64,000 nt of DNA, taken from contig NZ_JAQSIO010000003.1 in the NCBI RefSeq assembly GCF_028649455.1, forward strand, positions 1-64,000, in the 5' to 3' direction. Under the pieces are notes generated by a model. That model ran no database searches. It had not been told where the DNA came from and was given only the letters and a program-made list of their open reading frames with translations. This DNA is from Curvibacter microcysteis. GTDB lineage: Bacteria; Pseudomonadota; Gammaproteobacteria; Burkholderiales; Burkholderiaceae_C. The position numbers and the translations under genes are program-made. This document shows positions 57,035-64,000 of the stretch, one piece after another (position 1 is the first letter of the stretch; every line of letters starts with the position of its first letter).

Positions 57035-57730
57035 TCAAGCGGTGGTGTTGGCGCCCGTCAACTGGGTCAGCAAGCGCTGGGCTGCGGCTTCCGAAGAGCC
57101 GGGGTTCTGGCCCGTGATCAGCAGCTCATCGGCCACCACATAAGAGCCCCAATCGGCGCCCTTGGAGTAGCGGCCGCCCTTGGCGATCAGCATGTCTTCG
57201 ACCAGGAAGGGCACCACGTCGGTGAGCTCGACGGCGGCCTCTTCGGTGTTGGTGAAGCCGGTGACCTGCTTGCCTTCCACCAGGGGGCGGCCGTTGGGGG
57301 CCTTGACGTCACGCAGCACGCCGGGGGCGTGGCAGACCAGGGCCACGGGTTTGTCGGCAGCGACAAAGGACTCGATCAGTGCCACCGAGTGCGGGTCGGC
57401 CACCAGGTCCCACAACGGGCCATGGCCACCAGGGTAGAAGACGGCGTCGAAGTCGGCTTGCGAGACGCTGTCCAGGCGGACCGTGCTGGCCAGTTGGGCC
57501 ATGGCGTCGGCGTCTTTTTCAAAGCGGCGCGTCAGCTCGGTCTGGAACATGGGTTCGTTGCTCTTGGGGTCCAGCGGCGGTTGGCCGCCCAGGGGCGAGG
57601 CCAGCACGATGTGGGCGCCGGCGTCTTTGAAGACGTAGTAGGGGGCGGCCAGCTCTTCGAGCCAGAAGCCCGTCTTCAGGCCGGTGTTGCCGAGTTGGTC
57701 GTGGGAGGTGAGGACCATCAAAACGTTCAT
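57035..57730 (-). CDS. DJ-1/PfpI-family protein (Hsp31/glyoxalase III-like)
   Basis: The 231-residue class I glutamine amidotransferase-like protein has the nucleophile elbow ALVCHAPGVL with Cys at about residue 132, preceded by the Glu-containing FYPGGHGPLWDL. The N-terminus MNVLMVLTSHDQLGNTGLKTG and the length match the Hsp31-like branch, some of which convert methylglyoxal to lactate without glutathione. It lies downstream of a NemR-like regulator with a matching operator dyad before its start, fitting a role in electrophile defence. Confidence 0.9.
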   Translation of the reverse strand: MNVLMVLTSHDQLGNTGLKTGFWLEELAAPYYVFKDAGAHIVLASPLGGQPPLDPKSNEPMFQTELTRRFEKDADAMAQLASTVRLDSVSQADFDAVFYPGGHGPLWDLVADPHSVALIESFVAADKPVALVCHAPGVLRDVKAPNGRPLVEGKQVTGFTNTEEAAVELTDVVPFLVEDMLIAKGGRYSKGADWGSYVVADELLITGQNPGSSEAAAQRLLTQLTGANTTA

Positions 57731-57768
57731 TGCATTCTCCAGTGGGTGTCAAACATGAATCAAAAAAA

Positions 57769-57796
57769 TAGACCGGTCTACTAGTAAATCGGTCTG
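57769..57796. promoter_or_regulatory. NemR-type operator before the DJ-1 gene
   Basis: TAGACCGGTCTA (57769-57780) is a perfect palindrome. It forms the left half of a larger 28-bp dyad centred at 57782.5 on TACTAGTA, whose right half reads ATCGGTCTG. The site lies 39 bp before the DJ-1 start. The TAGAC/GTCTA arms match the site upstream of the regulator (58463-58477). Confidence 0.75.
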
Positions 57797-57834
57797 AAAA
57801 AGCACCTCGGGTGAGGTGCGGTGAGGGCCTGGTC

Positions 57835-58440
57835 TCAGCCAGGAATTTGCAAAAGTCGGTGGGTGCTGTTCAGGGCGGCGTCAAAGGGTTGGGGGCTGCG
57901 CTCGACCTTGGCCAGGATGCTGGCGCCAACCCAGAGTTGGTAAAGGCTCTCCGCCAGCTCAGCGGCGGGGGCTGGGCTGCTCAGGGACTGTTCCGCCTGG
58001 GCTTGTGCAATCGCGCCAGCCAAGCGGGAGATGATGCCCTGGGTGCCTTGCTTCATCGCGGCCCGCATGGCCTCCGACAGGTCGGCCACTTCAGCGCCCA
58101 GTTTCACAGCCAGGCACTTGCCTTGGCACTCGAGCACTGACTGGGTGTTCTTCCAGTCGTCAAAATAGGTCAGCAGGCGCTGGGCCCAAGTCAGGTCGGT
58201 GCGGCCCAGGGTGCAGTCGATTTCGGCCCAATAGGCGTCAAAGTACGCGAGCAGCAAGGCTTCGCCAAAGGCTTCTTTGGAACCAAAGTAATGGTAGAAC
58301 GAGCCTTTGGGCACACCGGCCGTGGTCAGGATCTCATTGATGCCCACCCCCGAGAAGCCCTTGTGGGCCATGATTTGTTGACCCACCGCCAGGATGTTGC
58401 GGCGCACGTCGGAGGTGTCTGGGAGGGCTAGGCTGGGCAT
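57835..58440 (-). CDS. TetR-family regulator, NemR-like
   Basis: The 201-residue repressor has the helix-turn-helix GVGINEILTTAGVPKGSFYHYFGSKE at about 31-56. The effector domain contains CQGKCLAVKLGAEVADLSEA, close to the E. coli NemR region whose Cys106 reacts with electrophiles and chlorine compounds; here Cys-109 would be the counterpart and Cys-105 a near neighbour. It is expected to repress itself and the DJ-1 gene from two matching dyads. The gene it faces on the other strand is the large lipid-biosynthesis protein. Confidence 0.88.
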   Translation of the reverse strand: MPSLALPDTSDVRRNILAVGQQIMAHKGFSGVGINEILTTAGVPKGSFYHYFGSKEAFGEALLLAYFDAYWAEIDCTLGRTDLTWAQRLLTYFDDWKNTQSVLECQGKCLAVKLGAEVADLSEAMRAAMKQGTQGIISRLAGAIAQAQAEQSLSSPAPAAELAESLYQLWVGASILAKVERSPQPFDAALNSTHRLLQIPG

Positions 58441-58462
58441 GGGGGCGAGTATAGCCTTGAAT

Positions 58463-58477
58463 TAGACCGGTCGTCTA
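58463..58477. promoter_or_regulatory. NemR-type operator in the divergent promoter region
   Basis: TAGACCGGTCGTCTA has TAGAC and GTCTA arms around a 5-bp centre, the pattern I recall for E. coli NemR. It lies 23 bp before the regulator's ATG and 160 bp before the start of the divergent multidomain gene. Confidence 0.75.
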
Positions 58478-58636
58478 CAACATTTTGAAGGGCCCCAAGA
58501 ACAGACTGGTGCGCTGCACAGCGGCGTCTGCGCCACAGTGCGGCCCGGTGTGTGCTGGGTCTCTAACGGTGGGCTGTCAGCCTCGCCTTACAGTCGGGGT
58601 CCCGCTCCGCCCGAGCTCCCTCCGCCTTTGCCCGCC

Positions 58637-61600
58637 GTGACCGACATCAAGACCTTGCAGACCTTCACCGAGGTGCTCCCCTGGCGTGCGCAGACCTGCC
58701 CGGACGACCTGGCCTACGCTTTCTACAGCGAAGACCTGTCGCAGCGGCAGGACCTGAGCTACCGCGAACTGCACCAGCGCGCGCTGGCGCTGGCGGGTCG
58801 CCTGGCCCGGGAGCACGCGCCGGGCGAGCGGGTGCTGATGCTGTTCGCGCCCGGTTTGTCGTTTGCCTTGGGTTTTTGGGCCTGTCTCTACGCGGGGCTG
58901 CTGCCCATGCCGGTCTACCCGCCGAACCGCCAGCAGCGCGCCGAGCGCTTGTTGGCCATCGCGCGCGACGCGCAGGCCAGCGGGGTGCTGACCACGGCTG
59001 CGCTGGCCCCCAAGTGCCAGGTGTGGCTGGACACGGCGCTGGCGCAACACGACTTTGCCCTGACGGTGGTGGACGAGGACATCGCCGAGGTCGACCCTGC
59101 ACCACCATCGCCGTCTGGGGCGCCCGGGGCCATCCGGGCCTTGCCGCACCGTGCGCGTCCCGAAGACCCGGTGTTCATCCAGTACACCTCGGGCTCCACC
59201 GGGGCGCCCAAGGGCGTGGTGGTCACCCAGCGCAGCCTGGTGCACAACCAGCATTCGATCACCGAAGGTTTTGCCTTGAGCCGGGCGTCCATCGGGGTCA
59301 GTTGGCTGCCCATGTACCACGACATGGGCTTGGTGGGCGGCTTGCTCAACCCGGTGTTCACGGGTTACCCCGTGCACTTGATGGAGCCCATGGCCTTCAT
59401 GCGGCGACCGGCCACCTGGCTGGACTTGCTGTCCGCCACCCGGGCCACCGTGAGTGGGGCGCCCGATTTCGCCTACGCCCTGTGCGTGCGCAAGCTCAGC
59501 GAGGCCGACTGCGCGGGTCTGGACTTGAGCGCCTGGACCTTGGCTTTCAGCGGTGCCGAGCCGGTGCGGGCCCGCACCCTGGCCGCCTTTGCCGACCGCT
59601 TTTCGCCGGTGGGCTTCCGGGCCCAGGCCTTTTGTCCCTGCTACGGCATGGCCGAAGCCACCTTGTTCATCAGCGCCCGGCGGGGTGGGGTGGCCTTGCC
59701 CGTGGCGTCGGACACGCACGCGCCAGCGCCTTCCGCACCTCTGGGGGCTGCCCAGTTGGCCTCAGCCGAGGTGGGCTCCGATGTCCGCCCGGATGGGGCG
59801 GCTTCGGCGCGCGCCTGGGTGAGCTGCGGTCAACCGGTGCAGGGCACCCAACTGATCACCGTGGACCCGGACACCCTGCGCCCCGTGCCGGAGGGGCAGG
59901 TGGGCGAGATCTGGGTCCGCGGCGACAGCGTGGCGGCGGGCTACTGGGCTCAGCCCGAGGCCAGCCAGGCCGCATTTGCGGCCCACACGGCCGACGGGCA
60001 AGGGCCTTTTTTGCGTACCGGCGACCTGGGGCTGCTGGCGCACGGCGAGCTGTGCGTCACGGGGCGGCTCAAGGACTTGATCATCCTGCGCGGGCGCAAC
60101 TGCTACCCCCATGACATCGAAGACCTCGTGCAGGCCTGCGACCACGCGCTCACGCCCCAGCGGGTGGCGGCTTTTTCCGCTGAACTCGATGGCGAGGAAA
60201 AGCTGGTTGTGGTGGCCGAGCTGACGCGCCAGGCCCTGCGCCAGTGCCAGTCCGAGAACGGCGTGGCGCTGGCCGATGCCGTGGTGGCCCGCATGCAGGC
60301 CGCGCTGGGCGAGGCCCTGGGCCTGAGCCTGGCGCAGGTGCTGCTGCTCAAGCCGGGCCACCTGCCGCTGACCTCGAGTGGCAAGGTCCGTCGGTCCACC
60401 TGCCGACAGGCCTGGCTGGACCAGCAGCTGGCGCCGGTGCACCAATGGCCTGCCGCAGCGGCCGCGCCCGGCCACCGCCTGCGTTGGCCAGACCCGCCCG
60501 AGGCCAGCCCAGGCGCCGCCCCCGCGCCGGCGGCGGCGGTGCCGGCCTTGGATGGCGCCGGCCCCCCGCAGCCCGGTGCCGTGCCGCGCCATGCACCGGA
60601 CTCCGCCCAGCGCGCTCAGGCGCTGATCGACTGGCTGCGCGGCTTTGCCAGCCGCCACCTGAACAGCGCCTTGATGGACGAGCGCCGCAGCCTGTCGCCC
60701 CATGTGGTGCTGGCGCTGGGCAACCAGGGCATCCTGGGCATGAGCATCCCCACCGAATGGGGTGGTTTGGGCCTGCGCGACGAGGACAGCCTGCGCGTCA
60801 TCCAGCAGCTCGGGGCCATCGACCTCAGCCTGGCCGCTTTTGTCGGCGTTCACCTCGCGCTGGGGGCTGGCCCCTTGCTGAGCCACGGCAGCCCCGCGCA
60901 GAAGGCGCAGTGGCTGCCCGCGCTGGCGTCGGGTCGCCAGCTGGCCGCCTTCGCCCTGACGGAGCCGGGCGCCGGCTCCAACCCGCGTCAGTTGCAGGCG
61001 CTGGCCCGCCCGACCGCCCTCGGCTGGTCCTTGACGGGGGAGAAATGCTGGATCGGCAACGCCGCCTGGTCGCAGGTGATCACCGTCTTCGCTCAGACCG
61101 AGGCCGGGCCAGGGGCCCCGTTGGGCATGTCGGCCTTTCTGGTGTCCGCCGACAACCCCGGGCTGCACATGGGCCCCGAGGCGCTGACCATGGGCATGCG
61201 CGGCATGGTGCAAAACGCCTTGTCCTTGCGCCAGGCGCCGCTGGCCGACGACGCCTTGCTGGGCATCGCCGGGCGGGGTTTTGAGGTCGCTCAGGCCGCC
61301 ATGTGCACCGGGCGCCTGGGCATTGCTGCGATGAGTGTGGGCGCCCTGCAGCGCTGTGCCCAACTGCTGCTGCGCTACGCCAGCGCGCGCACGGTCAACA
61401 CCGGGCGCTTGCTCGACAACCCCGTCACCCGCGAGCGCCTGCACTGGATCACCCAGGCCGCCACCGCCGTGTCGGCCTGGGTTCAGGCGCTGGCCCAGGC
61501 GCGCGACCAGGGCCAGGACTGGCCCGATGAGGCCTACGCCGTGGCCAAAATCGCCGGGCCCGAGTGCCTGGGCCAGGCGGTGGACTGGCTCATGCAGGGC

Positions 61601-64000
61601 CTGGGCGGGCGCGGTTACATCGAGAGCAATGGCGTGCCCCAGTTGCTGCGCGACGCGCGCTTGCTGCGCATTTTCGAGGGCCCGACCGAGACCCTGCAGA
61701 TGCACCTGGGCTTGTCGCTGATGCACCAGGCCGAGGGTTTGCTGAAACTGTTCGAGCAGTCACTCCAGGCCCCCCTGGCTGCCCAGCGCTTGCGCAGCTT
61801 GCGCGACCGGGGCCAGGCCTGGCTGGACGCTGCCGAGCCCGCGGCAGGCGGCCGGGCGGTGAGCACCCGCAGCCTGGCCTGGCACCTGGGGCGCATCGTG
61901 GTCTGGCTGGCGCTGGGGGCGGTGCTGGAGGGGCCACGGGGCCAGCTCGCGGGGGCGCCAGCCCGTTCGGCCCAGGCCTGGGCACGCCGTGAAGAAGACC
62001 GGCTCACCGGCGCCTTGGACGACGCACTGCGCCACACCCGCGAGGCCGGTGCGGCCGGGCTGGAGGCGCAGATCGAGGCCTTTGCCGAGGCCATCGGCGA
62101 CGTCCACCCCCGCTTGCCTGGCGAGGACCATGGGCGCGATCCGCTGCTGTTCCCGGGCGACGCAGTGGCGCCGTCCGCGCCGTCCACCCTGTGGGCGGCC
62201 CAGGCCCCGGGTCTCGGGCCTGAGGCTGCCGCTTCGCCCGCGCCGCCCCCGGCCGCCGAGCCCGGCGGGGACGCCCAGGCGCAGGCCCTGTGTGACTGGC
62301 TCTGCGCCTGGCTGGCGCGCGAGCTCAAAGTGCCCTTGGAACGGGTCGATCCGCAGCAGTCGCTGATGGCCAGCGGCCTGGATTCGCTCAGTGCCACCGA
62401 ATGTGCGCTGGCCTTGGAGGCCCACCTGGGCCGGCCGGTGTCGATGGACCTGTTCTGGGAGGCCGGGTCGGTGGCGGCCTTGGCGCAGTGCCTGTGCCAA
62501 GACCCGCTGGCCAAGACCGGGCCCGAGGCTGGGGCCGAGGTCGTGGTCCCAACGTCCGCCCCGGTCGCGCCCCCTTCCTCAGACCTGGCCACTGCCGGCC
62601 TGCTGGCTCGCGCCGAGGCCTCCGAGACCCCTGCAACGCCAGGGCGCTGGGGCCCCATGGCCGCAGGCCCCAGCCTGAGTGTGTTCTTTTTTGGTGGCGA
62701 GCAGGGGCGCCTGGACGCCGACCAGGCCTACGCCCTCATCATCGATTGCGCCCGGCTTGCAGACGAGGCGGGTTTCGAGGCGATCTGGACGCCGGAGCGC
62801 CACTTCCACGCCTTCGGCGGGCACTTTCCCAACCCCTCGGTGCTGGGGGCGGCGCTGGCTCGGGAGACCCGGCGCATCGACCTGCGTGCCGGCAGCGTGG
62901 TGCTGCCCTTGCACCACCCCGCCCGGGTGGCCGAGGAATGGGCGCTGGTGGACCGCCTGTCCGGGGGGCGCGCGGGCGTCGCCGTGACCCCTGGCTGGAG
63001 CCCCAAGGATTTTCTGCTGCAGCCCCAGGCCCATGCCGCGCGCTTTGAGGCCCTGCCCGAGCAGGTGGACCTGCTGCGCCGCCTGTGGTCGGGTGAGTCG
63101 GTTTCGTTTGTCGATGCCCACGGCCAGCCTGTGCAGACCCAGACTTACCCGCGCCCGGTGCAGCCCGAATTGCCCCTGTGGCTGACCTGCAACCGCCGGG
63201 TCGAGGGCTTTGCCCAGGCTGGCGCCCTGGGGGCGCGGGTGCTGACCGCGCTGTTGAGTCAAACCCTGGAGGAGCTGGCGCAGAAGATCGGGGTCTACCG
63301 CGAGGCGCTGCAAGCGCACGGCCATGCCCCTCAGCGGGGTCGCGTCACTTTGATGCTGCACACCTATGTGGCGGATGACCTGGCGCAGGCCCGGGAGGAC
63401 GTGCGCCAGCCGCTGACGGACTACCTGCGCAGTTCGGTCGATCTGTGGCAGCAGGGCAGCACCGACCTGGCCAGCCTCAGCGAGGCGGCGCGCGAGCAGC
63501 TGCTGTCCTTTGCCTTCGAGCGCTACCTGCAGCACAGTGCGCTGATCGGCCCGCCCGACCATTGCCAGCGCCTGATCGACCGGGTCCATGCGGCGGGGGT
63601 CGATGAAATTGCCTGTCTGCTCGACTTCGGCTTGGGCCCGGTGCAGATCAAGGCCAGCCTGCAGCGCCTGGCGGGTTTGCAGCGTGCGGTGCCGCTTGGA
63701 CAGCCCGCACCCGCACCCGCGGCGGCCCCCCTGAAAGCCGCGTTGGTGCCGGGCTGGGGACGGGTGTTGCACCAGCCCCCGCAGTCCCGGGGGCGGCTGA
63801 TTTGCTTCCCCGCCGCGGGCGAGGACGCCAGCATGTTCGAGGCCTGGCGCGCGGCCGGTGACCTGCCGTTTGAGATCCTGGCCCTGCAATGGCCCGATCA
63901 CCTGGACGAACTGGAGGCCTTGATGGCCGAGTTGATGCCCAGGCTGCAGCCCCTGTGCCAGGGCCCCTACGCGTTCTATGGCCACAGCTTGGGCGCCTGG
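58637..64000 (+). CDS. Multidomain FAAL-ACAD-ACP-luciferase-like monooxygenase-thioesterase protein, C-terminus cut
   Basis: The frame is open from GTG 58637 to the window end (1788 codons). Domains in order are: a fatty acyl-AMP ligase (1-600; YTSGSTGAPKGV at 183, YGMAEATLFISA, SSGKVRR near 580), with FAAL-type PMAFMRRPATWLDLLSATRA; an acyl-CoA dehydrogenase (655-1060; FEGPTETLQMHL with the putative Glu base); an acyl carrier protein (about 1215-1285; GLDSLSA with Ser-1250); a luciferase-like monooxygenase of MupA/Atu3671 type (about 1347-1685); and the start of a type II-like thioesterase (LICFPAAGEDASMF, GHSLGAW, Ser-1784). It would activate a fatty acid, load it on its carrier, oxidise it, and release or pass it on. 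No clear ribosome binding site precedes GTG; an in-frame TTG lies three codons earlier. Confidence 0.9.
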   Translation, partial: MTDIKTLQTFTEVLPWRAQTCPDDLAYAFYSEDLSQRQDLSYRELHQRALALAGRLAREHAPGERVLMLFAPGLSFALGFWACLYAGLLPMPVYPPNRQQRAERLLAIARDAQASGVLTTAALAPKCQVWLDTALAQHDFALTVVDEDIAEVDPAPPSPSGAPGAIRALPHRARPEDPVFIQYTSGSTGAPKGVVVTQRSLVHNQHSITEGFALSRASIGVSWLPMYHDMGLVGGLLNPVFTGYPVHLMEPMAFMRRPATWLDLLSATRATVSGAPDFAYALCVRKLSEADCAGLDLSAWTLAFSGAEPVRARTLAAFADRFSPVGFRAQAFCPCYGMAEATLFISARRGGVALPVASDTHAPAPSAPLGAAQLASAEVGSDVRPDGAASARAWVSCGQPVQGTQLITVDPDTLRPVPEGQVGEIWVRGDSVAAGYWAQPEASQAAFAAHTADGQGPFLRTGDLGLLAHGELCVTGRLKDLIILRGRNCYPHDIEDLVQACDHALTPQRVAAFSAELDGEEKLVVVAELTRQALRQCQSENGVALADAVVARMQAALGEALGLSLAQVLLLKPGHLPLTSSGKVRRSTCRQAWLDQQLAPVHQWPAAAAAPGHRLRWPDPPEASPGAAPAPAAAVPALDGAGPPQPGAVPRHAPDSAQRAQALIDWLRGFASRHLNSALMDERRSLSPHVVLALGNQGILGMSIPTEWGGLGLRDEDSLRVIQQLGAIDLSLAAFVGVHLALGAGPLLSHGSPAQKAQWLPALASGRQLAAFALTEPGAGSNPRQLQALARPTALGWSLTGEKCWIGNAAWSQVITVFAQTEAGPGAPLGMSAFLVSADNPGLHMGPEALTMGMRGMVQNALSLRQAPLADDALLGIAGRGFEVAQAAMCTGRLGIAAMSVGALQRCAQLLLRYASARTVNTGRLLDNPVTRERLHWITQAATAVSAWVQALAQARDQGQDWPDEAYAVAKIAGPECLGQAVDWLMQGLGGRGYIESNGVPQLLRDARLLRIFEGPTETLQMHLGLSLMHQAEGLLKLFEQSLQAPLAAQRLRSLRDRGQAWLDAAEPAAGGRAVSTRSLAWHLGRIVVWLALGAVLEGPRGQLAGAPARSAQAWARREEDRLTGALDDALRHTREAGAAGLEAQIEAFAEAIGDVHPRLPGEDHGRDPLLFPGDAVAPSAPSTLWAAQAPGLGPEAAASPAPPPAAEPGGDAQAQALCDWLCAWLARELKVPLERVDPQQSLMASGLDSLSATECALALEAHLGRPVSMDLFWEAGSVAALAQCLCQDPLAKTGPEAGAEVVVPTSAPVAPPSSDLATAGLLARAEASETPATPGRWGPMAAGPSLSVFFFGGEQGRLDADQAYALIIDCARLADEAGFEAIWTPERHFHAFGGHFPNPSVLGAALARETRRIDLRAGSVVLPLHHPARVAEEWALVDRLSGGRAGVAVTPGWSPKDFLLQPQAHAARFEALPEQVDLLRRLWSGESVSFVDAHGQPVQTQTYPRPVQPELPLWLTCNRRVEGFAQAGALGARVLTALLSQTLEELAQKIGVYREALQAHGHAPQRGRVTLMLHTYVADDLAQAREDVRQPLTDYLRSSVDLWQQGSTDLASLSEAAREQLLSFAFERYLQHSALIGPPDHCQRLIDRVHAAGVDEIACLLDFGLGPVQIKASLQRLAGLQRAVPLGQPAPAPAAAPLKAALVPGWGRVLHQPPQSRGRLICFPAAGEDASMFEAWRAAGDLPFEILALQWPDHLDELEALMAELMPRLQPLCQGPYAFYGHSLGAW

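Follow-up and report, generated by a model that had tools for sequence, protein, structure and literature searches.

The window analysed here comprises positions 1–64000 of contig C3 (682,022 bases) of the 4,822,995-base genome of Curvibacter microcysteis. At its end lies a gene whose product joins in a single chain a fatty acyl-AMP ligase (FAAL), an acyl-CoA dehydrogenase (ACAD), an acyl carrier protein (ACP), a luciferase-like monooxygenase (LLM) and a thioesterase (TE) (Table 1). A first-pass annotation, made from the letters alone, had described one continuous frame with this domain order, and Pfam returns the same succession in 58637–64000: AMP-binding, ACAD domains, PP-binding, Bac_luciferase and the first part of Thioesterase. 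The frame, on the + strand, is open through the end of the window and continues to a stop at contig position 64471, which gives a complete protein of 1944 amino acids counted from the GTG at 58637. The other start candidate, a TTG in the same frame at 58628, aligns with the ATG of the orthologue described below and may be the true start. The G+C content of the gene is 72.0%, compared with 65.0% for the window. The annotation correctly placed the window's end four residues past the TE nucleophile (Ser1784 occupies 63986–63988 and the window ends at residue 1788); beyond 64000, where it had advised reading on, lie only the remainder of the TE, the stop codon and then unrelated neighbouring genes.

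Table 1 Features of the five-domain gene and its product
Feature	Residues	Positions	Strand	Evidence and remarks
Whole gene (window part), FAAL-ACAD-ACP-LLM-TE		58628..64000	+	Stop at 64471, outside the window
FAAL domain	8–604	58658..60448	+	PF00501; extent is that of the match to 7R7G (FAAL domain), the best solved structure
ACAD domain	660–1030	60614..61726	+	PF02771, PF02770, PF00441; Glu1014 (61676–61678) in RIFEGPTE
Region behind ACAD	1041–1215	61757..62281	+	No Pfam match; 69.0% identical to orthologue
ACP	1220–1286	62294..62494	+	PF00550, 51.1 bits; phosphopantetheine Ser1250 (62384–62386)
LLM domain	1347–1681	62675..63679	+	TIGR04020, 447.6 bits (curated cut-off 244.45)
Thioesterase	1720–1938 (1720–1788 within window)	63794..64000, to ~64450 beyond window	+	PF00975

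The catalytic roles of the ACAD, ACP and TE motifs are textbook knowledge. Glu1014, the catalytic-type residue of the ACAD, and the surrounding IFEG motif align with acyl-CoA dehydrogenases of the PDB. This domain is 44–52% identical to FAAL-fused ACADs elsewhere and at most 34% identical to the matches listed from its own genome; its position between the FAAL and the ACP suggests that it oxidises acyl-ACP. The sole PF01648 match in the genome is AcpS, and a carrier-activating enzyme therefore exists in this organism. The FAAL domain is matched at E ≤ 1e-60 by 14 PDB sequences, 12 of which are identified as FAALs by their names or in the table of PMC11837247, the remaining two (7WUA and 5ICR) being named acyl-CoA synthase only. 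In an alignment, the domain shares with two other FAALs a segment behind the YGMAE motif that one acyl-CoA ligase encoded in the same genome lacks; we place the FAAL-specific insertion in these extra residues, with approximate borders. Other matches to the FAAL region in the genome are partial and weak (best, 54.5 bits).

On the whole protein, the TE matches PF00975 with 89.6 bits over profile positions 2–225 of 226. Its best solved match is RifR, and alignment with the RifR structures 3FLA/3FLB identifies the triad as Ser1784, Asp1893 and His1921, the latter two lying beyond the window. The LLM has no second TIGR04020 counterpart in its own genome at E 1e-60, and its closest solved relative is the OX domain of PuwE (6KET, 347.2 bits). 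The same structure is the first match of an AlphaFold2 model of the domain (TM-score of 0.88, 46% identity), which was computed from 4 sequences and is the best of five models (mean pLDDT of 79.8 in a range of 38.1–79.8). An alignment of 36 other LLM sequences, from which the long-branch row L149 had been excluded beforehand, has 55 columns of at least 95% conservation; both Curvibacter proteins keep 51 of these, and N1399 differs in the orthologue only. In a tree of 39 rows, computed without 14 further frames from the organism's own family, the Curvibacter pair falls outside the group of LLMs inserted in adenylation domains. Because the nearest row, L148, has a support of only 88/86, we infer no substrate from this tree. 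The L148 gene itself belongs to a small cluster (L148:851-10089, − strand) that comprises two KAS-III-like genes, an AMP-ligase and the MupA-type LLM gene.

The orthologue is found in Curvibacter sp. HBC61 (locus L011), where the same five domains form one unbroken frame. According to PMC10699270, isolate HBC28 is Curvibacter microcysteis and HBC61 is C. cyanobacteriorum, both from fresh water sampled during a cyanobacterial bloom. The two proteins are 83.0% identical over 1928 aligned residues, with domain values of 85.1% (FAAL), 93.5% (ACAD), 92.0% (ACP), 88.3% (LLM) and 83.6% (TE). The corresponding dN/dS ratios are 0.19, 0.09, 0.07, 0.13 and 0.19; between the domains they are 0.42 for the FAAL-ACAD linker, 0.45 for the region behind the ACAD, 0.88 for the ACP-LLM linker and 0.19 for the short LLM-TE linker. 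All alignment gaps are located between domains, except for stretches of 15 and 2 residues inside the FAAL. This pattern is consistent with a single functional protein that has retained each of its five domains. Since the orthologue is a single frame of the same layout at this level of identity and with an overall dN/dS of 0.21, chance or misassembly is an unlikely origin of the architecture, and we rejected an assembly or frame artefact; the stop or frameshift between domains that the annotation had allowed for is absent from HBC61 as well.

To find other proteins of this layout, we scanned genome contigs (genome_contigs) with six short peptide patterns and kept the best 80 of 317 relatives (79 loci), a procedure that may have missed remote five-domain relatives. 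Within these 80, HBC61 is the only locus with all five domains in one frame; four others (L027, L028, L073 and L074) also match past residue 1280, with no ACAD or LLM match in the FAAL frame. At E ≤ 1e-100 the full protein is present in 2 of 9 Curvibacter genomes, its own included, and none of 234 plasmid records covers 80% of it at E ≤ 1e-50. With the own genome counted, TIGR04020 at E ≤ 1e-60 occurs in 4/120 and 16/399 genomes of the family, 3/300 of the order, 4/369 of the class and 19/398 of the phylum, these five sets being samples that overlap one another. We assembled 52 LLM-bearing frames from the two Curvibacter frames, 40 places from the five TIGR04020 searches, loci L075 and L078 and 8 plasmid records, omitting short duplicate loci of the same places (one plasmid search alone lists 81 records). 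An ACAD match, a TE match and the complete set of five domains are each found in two of these frames, every time the two from Curvibacter. In the others, the LLM is located inside an NRPS (nonribosomal peptide synthetase) adenylation domain, in a polyketide synthase (PKS) protein, such as that of L132 with the layout FAAL-ACP-ketosynthase-acyltransferase-aminotransferase-LLM, or in a separate gene. Conversely, 92 frames have a FAAL match of at least 300 bits and 5 of them also carry an ACAD: the two from Curvibacter and one each from Gloeocapsa PCC 7428, Gloeothece PCC 7822 and Burkholderia stagnalis.

The sequence searches made thus yielded no other protein in which FAAL-ACAD-ACP is joined to an LLM and a TE, and the annotation's view that this is not a standard assembly line stands. 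In open-licence PMC papers we likewise found nothing on the combination, nor any characterised protein of identical architecture, which the annotation had considered, although absence from print is not thereby proven. FAALs are described as stand-alone, ACP-fused or PKS/NRPS-fused in a 2025 review, whose main text contains neither 'acyl-CoA dehydrogenase' nor 'monooxygenase' (PMC11837247), and what PMC9431677 describes are separate mycobacterial genes, not one chain. In the five-domain chain, known domains appear to be combined in a new way, as a self-contained unit.

Parts of this chain have parallels in known systems. Like the Curvibacter protein, WP_015191275 of Gloeocapsa PCC 7428 and WP_347469865 of Burkholderia stagnalis have the order FAAL-ACAD-ACP, and their ACADs are 49–52% identical to that of Curvibacter; unlike it, they end at the ACP, lack the LLM and the TE and sit in larger clusters. 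A further FAAL-ACAD fusion, Orf45 of the enduracidin cluster (Yin and Zabriskie), is noted in PMC9113097. The Curvibacter protein has the domain order of such a loading unit, followed by an LLM, a TE and a stop codon instead of an extending module or gene. The Gloeocapsa cluster comprises the FAAL-ACAD-ACP protein, three PKSs, a separate LLM gene and two NRPSs beside TonB receptors; its parts for loading, dehydrogenation, carriage and oxygenation correspond to those of the Curvibacter protein, although they belong to an ordinary assembly line. This plasmid cluster (L130:1143-44174) also contains a tyrosinase, lies between TonB receptors and looks siderophore-type. In Gloeothece PCC 7822 (L095:9974-18809), a FAAL-ACAD frame is accompanied by another ACAD encoded in a gene of its own, with 50.5% identity to that of Curvibacter; next to it lie genes for an ACP, a condensation-domain protein and a P450.

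The oxygenase has its own set of relatives. NRPSs whose adenylation domain contains a TIGR04020 LLM share the LLM family with the Curvibacter protein and have no ACAD or TE match; we take them to be Atu3671-type. In 9 of the 14 further own-family frames, adenylation-type matches flank the LLM on both sides, as Pfam confirms in L104 and L151. One of these frames (L104:9284-14701, + strand) is an NRPS with a formyltransferase-type N domain in addition to the LLM inside its adenylation domain. Among the frames examined, the LLM most similar to that of Curvibacter outside the genus (52% identity) is that of L107, from the same order, where an ACP and a TE are also present; in contrast to Curvibacter, a ketosynthase takes the place of the FAAL and ACAD, and the domains are split between two genes. 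This locus (L107:7892-12624, − strand) pairs a ketosynthase-TE-ACP protein with a separate MupA-type LLM gene and is possibly a compact alpha-hydroxy-beta-keto acid synthase. The PuwE OX domain is part of a PKS-aminotransferase-oxygenase-NRPS protein of puwainaphycin synthetase, in which the PKS module makes the substrate, and the aminotransferase and oxygenase are proposed to yield the 3-amino-2-hydroxy acyl chain of puwainaphycin (PMC4219810). MupA of mupirocin biosynthesis, after which TIGR04020 is named and with which the comparison is by family, not by direct sequence, is an ACP-dependent alpha-hydroxylase; unlike the Curvibacter LLM, it is a separate protein acting in trans. MupA requires a beta-keto chain (PMC10953402), which no domain of the Curvibacter protein makes. 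A comparable succession of desaturation and oxygenation of an ACP-bound fatty acyl chain is predicted for HxcO and HcmO of the calcium-dependent antibiotic (CDA) (PMC9136287), but these are separate enzymes that serve an NRPS, and CDA initiation does not proceed via a FAAL and an ACP (PMC9113097).

Downstream of the five-domain gene, on the opposite strand (64492–68149), lie genes for a TctC-type solute receptor, a short-chain dehydrogenase/reductase, a fumarylacetoacetate-hydrolase-like protein and a 2-hydroxyacid-dehydrogenase-like protein, followed by a citrate-synthase-like and an AraC-type protein. Two divergent genes upstream encode a DJ-1/PfpI protein and a TetR regulator that is AcuR/CurR-like but scores under each of the two curated cut-offs. 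HBC61 shares these upstream genes and has different ones downstream, the next being that of a ChaN-like protein. Profile searches found no biosynthetic gene with a chain-extending role among the eight neighbouring genes examined and no condensation domain in the genome. By Pfam, the protein contains no ketosynthase, condensation, acyltransferase or reductase domain; the eight neighbours have no ketosynthase either, the rest of the genome not having been searched for one. Strict antiSMASH analysis of RS43, HBC28 and HBC61 is reported to give terpene and beta-lactone clusters (PMC10699270). The first-pass annotation had offered two readings, the start module of a larger cluster and a self-contained machine. 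The former is refuted, and we rejected it together with the idea of a cluster fragment: the gene ends after the TE, the neighbours examined are unrelated and differ downstream in HBC61, and the genome search returned no condensation domain. The latter is the best supported and fits the architecture.

We propose that the protein is a self-contained, single-chain enzyme that loads, desaturates, oxygenates and releases a ready-made fatty acid, and we assign this reading a probability of about 0.5; the architecture is observed, and the chemistry is what we infer from it. In the proposed cycle, the FAAL would adenylate a free fatty acid and hand the acyl group to the phosphopantetheine arm of the ACP. 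The ACAD would take two hydrogens to give a 2-enoyl-ACP, passing the electrons to an electron-transferring flavoprotein or to O2. With FMNH2 supplied in trans and O2, the LLM would add one oxygen near the thioester; the alpha carbon is the most likely site, as its characterised relative MupA acts there. The TE would hydrolyse off a free alpha-oxygenated, probably unsaturated, fatty acid. Candidate products would be a 2-hydroxy, a 2-hydroxy-3-ene or a 2,3-epoxy acid. ACADs encoded beside FAAL and ACP genes are held to add double bonds (delta-2, delta-4, delta-cis-3 by gene disruption) to lipopeptide starters, and, according to the same source, mechanistic studies do not exist (PMC9113097). In vitro, MupA hydroxylates the alpha carbon of its own beta-ketoacyl chain on one ACP in the presence of FMN, NADH and Fre (PMC10953402). 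Because no domain of the Curvibacter protein makes a beta-ketone, we propose the enoyl thioester as the activated substrate of the LLM: speculatively, loss of a gamma proton would give a dienolate, and hydroxylation of its C2 would lead to a 2-hydroxy-3-enoic acid. That the ACAD double bond replaces a ketosynthase-made beta-ketone in activating the alpha carbon, such that a one-protein assembly line would form free 2-hydroxy-3-enoic (or otherwise alpha-oxygenated, unsaturated) acids out of ordinary fatty acids with no chain extension, is a tentative and rather doubtful idea.

Several observations weigh against a load-desaturate-oxygenate-release enzyme. MupA did not hydroxylate a free pantetheine substrate, acetoacetyl-ACP or a chain carried by a second ACP (PMC10953402), and the beta-ketone it required is produced by none of the five domains. 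Both Curvibacter proteins deviate at three positions conserved in at least 35 of the 36 related LLMs (F1347L, N1440R and A1451T), and these substitutions may mean an altered activity. The TE resembles stand-alone editing TEs; AcpS, the only carrier-activating enzyme found, might not accept the ACP of the megaenzyme; and the spread of the protein within the genus, given above, is narrow. Finally, the whole-cell fatty acids of RS43, HBC28 and HBC61 listed in Table 3 of PMC10699270 include no 2-hydroxy or epoxy acid; either the gene is therefore silent, or its product is not abundant among the lipid acyl groups of these strains.

Epoxidation is the main rival because desaturation and epoxidation of an acyl-ACP have been predicted for CDA and the cystargamides. 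By a logic like that of their starter units, the LLM would attack the ACAD-made 2-enoyl-ACP, and the resulting 2,3-epoxyacyl chain would be released as a glycidic acid. The position of the ACAD directly before the ACP and of the oxygenase directly after it agrees with such a course, but HcmO presumably belongs to another flavin monooxygenase family than the MupA-type LLM. HxcO and HcmO are predicted to desaturate and epoxidise the acyl-ACP that becomes trans-2,3-epoxyhexanoic acid in CDA; for cystargamide, a single enzyme, CtmB, has been proposed (PMC9136287); the Curvibacter oxygenase, however, is MupA-type, and MupA hydroxylates the alpha carbon (PMC10953402), so we regard epoxidation as unlikely. 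Still less probable, in our judgement, is that the beta-keto chain comes from outside, with the FAAL activating a beta-keto or beta-hydroxy acid or the ACP being loaded in trans, in which case the product would be an alpha-hydroxylated 3-oxo acid or its breakdown product. This would meet the requirement of MupA for its own beta-keto chain (PMC10953402) and would resemble L107, in the same order, where the 52% identical LLM gene lies beside the ketosynthase-TE-ACP gene; yet it leaves the ACAD with no evident role, and the eight neighbours examined include no ketosynthase (the search for this domain extended no further into the genome).

Two other explanations concern the fate of the acyl chain. 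The protein could make a starter for a distant, unlinked pathway, with a TE that has an editing (type II-like) function and does not carry out the release, as the match to RifR and the larger clusters around the FAAL-ACAD-ACP proteins of Gloeocapsa and Burkholderia stagnalis would suggest. With no condensation domain in the genome, which was not searched for unlinked PKSs, and with the terpene and beta-lactone clusters of the strict antiSMASH analysis (PMC10699270), we give this little credence. If the protein does release an unsaturated oxygenated acid, that acid might serve as a diffusible signal or weapon among bloom bacteria. DSF (diffusible signal factor)-type 2-enoic acid signals offer a comparable logic. 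That an orphan gene including a TE occurs in isolates from bloom water (PMC10699270) is compatible with this role, but the neighbours examined include no evident signalling gene and the TetR/DJ-1 pair looks like a separate module; we consider such a role highly improbable.

If the load-desaturate-oxygenate-release reading is true, a single gene converts a common fatty acid to an alpha-oxygenated free acid, a possible one-enzyme route to functionalised acids, and the question arises of whether MupA-type oxygenases work without the beta-ketone that MupA required. Orphan megaenzymes like the Curvibacter protein may be overlooked, considering that the published strict antiSMASH runs gave the terpene and beta-lactone clusters (PMC10699270).

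The upstream TetR and DJ-1/PfpI genes (57035–58477) carry operator-like sequences of their own. A palindromic box, TAGACCGGTCGTCTA (58463–58477), immediately precedes the TetR start, at a distance of about 150 bases from the megaenzyme gene, and a near copy with 2 mismatches (57769–57783) precedes the DJ-1 gene. The regulator is, we assume, NemR-like. On two other plasmids, the gene after a relative of this TetR encodes a 'type 1 glutamine amidotransferase domain' protein, our presumed DJ-1 counterpart, with no such megaenzyme nearby; a third region carries no annotation. Because of these boxes and plasmid pairs, we rejected the TetR as a clue to the function of the megaenzyme and treat the two genes, which seem to occur together elsewhere without it, as a separate unit; the pair has the appearance of a stress or detoxification module that regulates itself and bears no relation to the five-domain protein.

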